DNA of 64,000 nt. Source: Patiria pectinifera (taxonomy: Eukaryota; Echinodermata; Asteroidea; Valvatida; Asterinidae). Every line of letters starts with the position of its first letter. The stretch's first letter is position 1. The DNA lies in NCBI GenBank assembly GCA_029964075.1, contig CM057133.1, forward strand, positions 11,308,699 to 11,372,698. The letters are read 5' to 3'. Below, one piece after another: positions 1,826 through 56,315 of this stretch. Under the pieces are notes generated by a model. It was not told where the DNA came from, searched no databases, and was given only the letters and a program-made list of their open reading frames with translations. The position numbers were made by a program, and so were the translations under genes.

Positions 1826-4800
1826 ATGATTCAGACGCTGGTTGGTGAAGCTGTTCCTCCGTTAGCGGAGACCCCATCTTGCCTGGACCCTCGGACACAT
1901 CAAGGGACGATGGATGAAACAGAGGTAGACCAAATGGCTCTGTTCATCAGCCACACACCGTCCAGTCAACCCATGGGTGCCGATCAAGGGCGTGTGCACT
2001 CTGTCTCAGACTCGGAGGAGATGAAGCCGGCGAATCCTTCCCACTCACCGGACATTAAAGCCGAGATTGTTCGTCCACTATCGTCCTCGTCAGCCTCACC
2101 GAACCAACACCAACATCTCCAGACTCCAAATCACCAGCACCAGGGAAGGAATATGGGCCCGGCTCCAGCGCTCAACAGACCCGTTAAACTCACAGCGTTT
2201 TCCGTGGCTGATATTCTCAATCCGAACAAATTCAACGGGCCAGTCCCCAAGTCGCCCCGGCAGTGCGATTGTGGCGAGGAACGCACCGACTCTTCGGAAC
2301 ATTGCCATCCGCGATCCGGCTCTGCATCCCCCGCTGTACCGACATCATGTCCGCCAAGTGCGCACGACTACACCTGGTCCTCGTCCTGGATTGGTGGGAA
2401 ACAACTGTGCAACGGAAGAAGCAACGTTGATTCTGGTGAGTATGATGGACCAGTGTGATATCCACTATGCAAAATGATGTCCCCTCATAATTGGAGCGAA
2501 CATCAAAATTCATGCAGAGCAGACAAGTTGAATGCATGTACACATGCAGATGCTAGCAGCAATTCATGAGAATATTATTGTGTCTGTTTACGTGTTCAGC
2601 TTATGTCATGATCACTTATAGGAAAGAGAAGGCTATAGAAGATATCACCCCCACAAATTACGGTTACAAATAGATTGTTTTCGTCATACGCTATTAATTT
2701 CTGGTTGATCTTTTAATATGTCTTTAGCTAATTATGGCTTTCAGAATAACCGGTCGGATGGATCATGATAATGTATATACGTATTAATGTTGGACATCTG
2801 GCGATCACATCTTGCCAGTCAAGCGAATCCATCTGGTGATCATTGTCATCCCGCAATGAGCTTCTGTCCCTCCAAAATCCAATTATCACCATCTCTGATA
2901 ACCGGTGTTTTGTGGGATGTAAAAGACAAGGGGCAAGGGGCTTTTTAATTGGCACTTTGTCGCACTTGGGGATTTAATGGCATCAGGGGAAATGGCCGGC
3001 AAGGCATCAAAGGATCCCGCGGTTAACCCCAGTCGACCTGATTCGATTGAACACTGAATAGATTGCATGGTTGATTGTCGTTTATACGGAAGGGCGAGCG
3101 TAAAAAAAACATTTTCCAAACGCGATTATTAATGCCGTGTATCCCAAAAGGTTCCAAGTAATTTAAACCATAAACTAGGTTGACTTTGGTCCGTAGTTTA
3201 CAAAATGAAAGTATAAGGTATTTTAAAATAAAATTTAATATGCAAATTTGGGAAAAGGAAGCAAATTTGGGAAAGGAAACGTTTAGTCGGTTACTGCCTC
3301 ACCAAATTCCTAGTATGAATTGAAGATGGTTGAGATTATATATTGGCTCAATTCGTATTGAGCTTATTTATTTACTAAAGCACAATGTTCTCTGCAAAAC
3401 TACTTTAGATCGGTCACTCTTGAAATCTCGAGTGTGGTCACTCGACTCAGAAAGAAAGGAACCGAATATCCAGTTTTTATGGTGGAAAATTCAGACGCAG
3501 CTATAAATAGGGACGAACCATTTTAACCAAATGAATGAAAGACAAAATGACGGAAAAAATATTCAGTGGTTACGGTGGAGATTAAATATTTTGCTCCTTT
3601 GAATTTGGTATCAAAAAGTCTGTAAGACATAGTTCTAAATACTCTTTACGCATCGACAGAGAGCGAAATGAATTCGCAGGAAAAACAAACTCTCCTCTTA
3701 AATGTTCAATTCAATTCTATTTTACTCTCATCATGTAAATGCTGGTCTCCAAATCTGAACATGTATTTTACATTGGACCTGGTTTTACTTCTTCCAAGTG
3801 GCTAAGAAAAGTCCCTCCCCCCTCCCACGTATTCCCTCATCCGAACGGAACCTCTGGTGCCAAGCTCAGCGCCATAAAGCCCGATAGGATTTCAAACTAA
3901 TGATTCACAAGTCACGGCTGAGCTACAGCCCAAATGGAAACTTCCAACAATCCCACAGCGCGCGTTTCCACGCGTTGGGAGGCGTTGACTGACGACCTAA
4001 TTCGGCCTTAGAGAGGCGGTCTGTTGCTGGGTTGAGACACATCCTCTTTCTGTACAAGGGGTTGTTGACATGGTATTTTGAGGTGGCGGACCGCCTCGAA
4101 GGAAAAAAGTCCAGATTATGGACTTTTTTTTTGCTTTTCAGTTTGACCAAAAGTAACTTGCCTTGGAAGAGGTTAATGTCAAATATTTCTTGCTCATTGT
4201 ATGAGATCTGTAAGTACCATTCTGATAGGCTTGCCTGAACAACATTTGCGGCTTAACACGTCAATATAGTATTTGTTTTTATGATTCCACCTTTTTAATT
4301 GAATGAAAGTTACACAAACACACAACAATGTCCCAAATTACCCAAATCTACGTTGACATGATTTCTCGCTGTATTGTGAAATTTGAAACTTCCGTGAAGG
4401 GCGCTATATCTGTCATCAAGTGGCAGTTTTACTTTGAAAATATGACAGCATCCCAGTGAGAAGTCGAATTCATATCTTTTTCCGTCCCAATTGTCGGTTA
4501 TATTTTCATCTAAAAATTAATGTGGCCTGACGTTGCGAACTTAGCAAGTTCTTCTTCAGAGCCTCTGAAGAAGAACTTGCTAAGTTCGCAACGTCAGGCC
4601 ACATTAATTTTTAGATTTATATATTTCAGGTCCATCCAGTCAGTAAGCAGTTTGCAGCAGTCTTACTTTTTTTCAATTATATTTTCAGTCAGTAACCTAT
4701 GAACTCAAATTAATTTAACAATAGACGTTATGATAACAAATTAGAATTTATATGTAGCAGCTTCTGTTCAATGTATACGTATACGCAATTTGCTTAAGAT

Positions 4801-56315: not shown

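Follow-up and report, generated by a model that had tools for sequence, protein, structure and literature searches.

The NK1 and Hmx homeobox genes of Patiria pectinifera as immediate same-strand neighbours: a further example of a known gene pair

Does the analysed stretch of 64,000 bases (the window) hold an NK1 gene and an Hmx gene with no other gene between them, and does such a pair descend from the NK cluster of the bilaterian ancestor or has it come together again in this lineage? The gene models, the content of the interval and the published positions of both genes in other animals were considered together.

Gene models and identity of the two homeodomains

Two genes of two coding exons each, both on the plus strand, were predicted from the letters of the window alone. 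The first coding exon of NK1 (1826-2435, plus strand) runs with an open frame from the ATG at 1826 to a donor GTGAGT at 2436, and the second (5795-6417, plus strand) follows the acceptor CTCACAG in matching phase and ends with the stop codon at 6417. The GT-AG intron is of phase 1 and the joined frame is open over 410 amino acids. A single Homeodomain match was obtained with Pfam in this protein (PF00046, residues 282-338, E 5.8e-22), corresponding to positions 6028-6198 of the plus strand after conversion from protein to window coordinates. When all six frames of the 64,000 bases were searched for motifs, YLSVCER was found at 6097 on the plus strand, followed by KIWFQNRR, a homeodomain signature. 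Exon 1 encodes TAFSVADIL, which we take to be an eh1-like motif. The intron of NK1 also contains a near-perfect palindrome of 125 bases (4500-4624) with 62-base arms, 95% complementary, and a loop of one base; it is perhaps a fold-back element.

The Hmx model is built in the same manner. Its first coding exon (53424-53709, plus strand) extends with an open frame from the ATG at 53424 to a donor GTAAGT at 53710; its second (55648-56315, plus strand) is preceded by the acceptor CCCTCCAG, matches in phase and ends with its stop codon at 56315. The intron is again GT-AG and of phase 1, and the joined frame is open over 317 amino acids. Pfam reported one Homeodomain match in the protein (PF00046, residues 168-224, E 5.7e-22), which lies at 55863-56033 on the plus strand by the same conversion. 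The same six-frame search found YLSSSER at 55932 on the plus strand, followed by KIWFQNRR, the second homeodomain signature. Behind the homeodomain, exon 2 encodes a tail that includes VRVPILYHE, presumably of the SD1/SD2 type. The HMX1 gene, as described in PMC4063770, likewise has two exons, the second of which holds the homeobox, SD1 and SD2, and thus agrees with the present gene in exon number and in the position of the homeodomain.

The identity of the homeodomains was assessed by comparison with 13 reference homeodomains. The NK1 homeodomain was identical to those of NKX1-2 and slouch at 58 of 60 residues, and to the next closest, BARHL1, at 37 of 60. The Hmx homeodomain shared 58 of 60 residues with HMX3 and 39 of 60 with NKX3-2, the next closest, and the two homeodomains of the window were identical to each other at 35 of 60 residues. 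In a small homeodomain tree, window Hmx and HMX3 formed a fork with values of 89/87, below the star threshold, and the fork of NK1 had no support; by path distance, the window NK1 was closest to NKX1-2 and slouch (0.029 each). A sequence search of the PDB returned engrailed, BarH-like 2 and GBX-1 as the top relatives of NK1 (the query carried R for S as its first letter, outside the homeodomain), and none of the 53 PDB sequences for NK1 and 37 for Hmx with E <=1e-12 was a chain named NKX1 or HMX. We take engrailed, BarH-like 2 and GBX-1 to be members of the ANTP class, and with the PF00046 match the NK1 homeodomain is accordingly of ANTP type. The residue comparisons indicate that the NK1 homeodomain is closest to NKX1/slouch and the Hmx homeodomain closest to HMX. 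The names NK1 and Hmx given in the preliminary description thus held, with 58 of 60 homeodomain residues matched and PF00046 found in each protein.

Gene content, repeats and continuity of the 47-kb interval

Between the stop codon of NK1 and the ATG of Hmx lie 47,006 bases (6418-53423) that contain repeats; no protein-coding gene, tRNA or Rfam family was recognised there. Rfam reported no family at gathering score, and ARAGORN (bacterial settings) no tRNA. Besides the NK1 and Hmx sites, the six-frame motif search of the 64 kb revealed no further homeodomain signature. A tblastn search with both proteins gave no sign of a third homeobox: apart from hits on the exons of the query and on the homeodomain of the other gene, it returned one weak match at 22205-22318 (E 0.027, 41% identity over 39 amino acids), which was taken as chance.

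For the Pfam search, 477 stop-to-stop open reading frames of at least 50 amino acids were collected from the whole window, and five that overlapped known exons, including both exon 1 frames, were removed. The scan covered 285 of the resulting 472 frames, those of at least 62 amino acids, so that 187 of 50-61 amino acids, as well as shorter ones, stayed outside it; the frames of both homeodomain exons were among the 285 and served as controls. No credible domain other than the two homeodomains was found in these 285 frames. Homeodomain had one member in each of the two ORF sets, and we regard these members as the frames of the two homeodomain exons. The other matches with E <=0.01 were Homeobox_KN (0.002), PMG (0.0037), CusS (0.0038) and DUF7757 (0.0081), with one member each, all in the second ORF set; about 1.4 chance matches are expected at E 0.01 from 140 proteins. 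The Homeobox_KN match is presumably the Hmx exon. PMG was rejected as a domain, since the match is a translated TTGAT repeat at 39162-39485 and falls below the PMG cut-off. The array itself (39236-39481) consists of 49 copies with 97% matches, and several of its minus-strand frames are open as a QIKSN repeat; the weak PMG match arises because the array translates as a repeat.

A six-frame codon-usage scan yielded 20 segments scoring above 12. The top four (84.4, 74.0, 39.6 and 31.4) fell on the four exons, in the order Hmx exon 2 (segment 55629-56303), NK1 exon 2 (5797-6399), NK1 exon 1 (1832-2386) and Hmx exon 1 (overlapped by segment 53355-53687). The codon model was trained on these same exons; when only the other gene was used for training, the totals were 38.6 for NK1 and 60.8 for Hmx. 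Of nine further segments outside the interval, six overlap a second exon but read in another frame, and three lie away from both genes. The remaining seven are in the interval, where five make up one GC-rich spot at 13.23-13.46 kb (top score 20.1) and two score 16.0 and 12.4.

These data bear on the possibility that a gene was missed, either a non-coding RNA or one with short unconserved exons, in which case NK1 and Hmx would not be immediate neighbours. The codon score of 20.1 at the GC-rich spot could be counted in its favour, as could the 187 frames of 50-61 amino acids outside the Pfam scan. The number of long frames points the same way: the interval holds 32 stop-to-stop frames of at least 100 amino acids, against a mean of 20.8 and a maximum of 29 in 30 first-order Markov sequences, and 83 of at least 80 amino acids (mean 60.4, maximum 74 in the 30 sequences). 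However, high scores at the GC-rich spot come from more than one frame and from either strand, the pattern expected of base composition, and neither of two plus-strand frames there matched a Pfam family at E up to 0.05. The other segments of the interval reach at most 16.0, compared with 31-84 for the exons on which the model was trained. The longest frame of the interval, of 154 amino acids, is not unusual, being below the mean longest of 162 in the Markov sequences, and the excess of frames may come from repeats and patchy composition. A missed gene is therefore considered quite unlikely. NK1 and Hmx are immediate neighbours, with no recognised gene in the 47,006 bases between them. The preliminary description had placed them on the same strand, about 47 kb apart and with no gene between: both genes are indeed on the plus strand, the outer coordinates and the spacing agree with our measurement, and the lack of an intervening gene was supported within the reach of the codon scan, Pfam, Rfam and ARAGORN.

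Several repeats were seen in the window. A dispersed repeat occurs at 9363-9668, 15408-15647 and 33370-33517, with pairs 75-80% alike; the copy at 9363-9668 contains ATGAATATGGAAATTTGCAT, and an octamer-like ATTTGCAT is present in two of the three copies. It is either a transposon relic or some other repeated element. A MITE-like element of about 410 bases (21934-22345) has inverted ends of 50 bases that are 82% complementary, and those of its frames that were scanned gave no match in Pfam. Another repeat is present at 37526-38213 as two direct copies within the interval, with an inverted copy downstream of Hmx at 62999-63471 (identity 75-82%).

An adjacency of this kind would be spurious if the assembly had fused two loci. 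The 64,000 bases contain no N. The CpG ratio was 0.93, a value that speaks against a heavily methylated vertebrate genome. It ranged from 0.70 to 1.19 per 2 kb, with GC between 0.33 and 0.48, and neither measure showed a sharp step. The recurrence of the 37.5-38.2 kb repeat at 63.0-63.5 kb, beyond Hmx, also speaks against a misjoin, if weakly, since a repeat shared across Hmx indicates at most the same genome. An assembly artefact is thus regarded as extremely improbable.

Origin of the adjacency

By our own estimate, the chance that two given genes adjoin among roughly 20,000 is of the order of 1e-4. The combination is well known from other animals. According to PMC13088399, which cites Wotton 2009 and Chan 2015, NK1/slou and NK5/Hmx form a conserved tandem on which the models of the ancestral cluster agree; the neighbours in this ancestral bilaterian tandem are the same two genes as here. 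In these models Msx, NK6 and NK7 precede or follow the pair, whereas none of them is visible here, the six-frame motif search having found no further homeodomain signature in the flanks of 1.8 kb and 7.7 kb that the window provides. An adjacent pair, as in our window, is stated in PMC10726417 for T. castaneum, B. terrestris, A. gambiae and I. scapularis (B. terrestris is spelt Bombyx terrestris earlier in that article and is taken here as the bumblebee).

Gene lists in further articles name the two genes together, and consecutive naming in such lists (oyster, sea spider, sea anemone) need not mean physical adjacency. In the oyster the order includes Noto, NK5 and NK1 consecutively on one chromosome, with non-homeobox genes interspersed (PMC7566022). 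One block of the sea spider contains NK5, NK1, Hhex and four Msx genes (PMC12220506), and on chromosome 5 of Nematostella the genes NK1, NK5, Msx, NK4 and NK3 are named in succession (PMC10719294), in an article that calls the cnidarian NK clusters largely disintegrated. NK1 and HMX are also named consecutively on one scaffold of Alvinella, where proximity varies (PMC12403961), and the canonical butterfly order is given as including NK1, Hmx, Emx (PMC9977156). In a jellyfish, the regions of NK1 and NK5 also hold Hox genes and further NK genes (PMC7305137).

In the human map (PMC2211742), NKX1-1 at 4p16.3 is accompanied by HMX1 at 4p16.1, and NKX1-2 at 10q26.13 by HMX2 and HMX3 at 10q26.13. The vertebrate linkage of NKX1 and HMX genes stated in the preliminary description is borne out by this map, on 4p16 and 10q26.13. 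The families are thus linked in human as they are here, with the difference that the human loci are duplicated while the window shows a single Hmx.

Against this background, the window most probably presents the ancient NK1-Hmx (NK1-NK5) pair of the bilaterian NK cluster as same-strand immediate neighbours. On this reading, NK1 and Hmx would have remained side by side from the ancestor onwards and would not have met a second time. The competing explanation, that the two genes were parted in an ancestor and re-joined by rearrangement in this lineage, draws on the fluid order of NK genes: at least seven likely rearrangements are reported within butterflies (PMC9977156), drosophilids are cited as a case of secondary re-clustering (PMC7566022), and NK1 and NK5 are apart in several lineages (PMC10726417, PMC13088399). 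Among these, PMC10726417 states that D. melanogaster and butterflies lack the adjacency and that tardigrade NK subclusters differ; in the incomplete assembly of the onychophoran Epiperipatus, each of the two genes sits on a small scaffold of its own (PMC13088399). Re-joining has to be set against the adjacency reported from three insect species and one tick (PMC10726417) and the consecutive naming in the lists for the sea spider, the oyster (where other genes are interspersed) and the sea anemone (PMC12220506, PMC7566022, PMC10719294). Given adjacency or consecutive naming in these animals, retention needs fewer events than re-joining, which we consider very unlikely. The proposal of a retained fragment of the ancestral NK group therefore stands as the best reading and matches PMC13088399; the immediate neighbourhood of the two genes, by contrast, is not new. 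The observation is real and of an ordinary kind, one more instance of a pair already described.

Possible regulatory DNA in the interval

Retention of the pair would be explained most readily if the 47-kb interval held cis-regulatory DNA belonging to NK1, to Hmx or to both. If such DNA is present, most breaks in the interval would be harmful. Conserved regulation has been suggested as a reason why NK subclusters persist (PMC10726417). A more specific form of this idea, in which the interval is one shared regulatory landscape of NK1 and Hmx that has held the pair since before the bilaterians, is doubtful in our view; interleaved but separate regulatory DNA would keep the two genes together equally well. 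NK1 and Hmx (NK5) encode homeodomain transcription factors that act in development. In panarthropods, NK1 is described as mainly mesodermal and NK5 as mainly expressed in the head (PMC13088399), a difference that tells in part against shared enhancers. For the onychophoran E. rowelli, limb mesoderm domains are reported as well for the two genes (PMC6050708).

Binding sites were counted in the interval as a possible sign of shared regulation. The HMX1 site CAAGTG (PMC4063770) was found 30 times against 26.2 expected (SD 5.3), and TAATTA 31 times against 21.6 (SD 4.5). CAATTA (52, expected 50.2), CACTTAA (7, expected 9.0), CAAGTGG (4, expected 5.8) and AGCAATTAA (0, expected 1.0) were at or below expectation within about one SD. 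With six motifs counted, nothing strong emerged, and site enrichment was rejected as such a sign.

The locus adds one more animal with NK1 and Hmx as neighbours, with clean gene models, and leaves the published view of the ancestral NK cluster unchanged. Its interval without recognised genes provides a large target for the screening of regulatory DNA. If enhancers in this interval act on both genes, this would help to explain why the pair has often resisted the break-up of the NK cluster.
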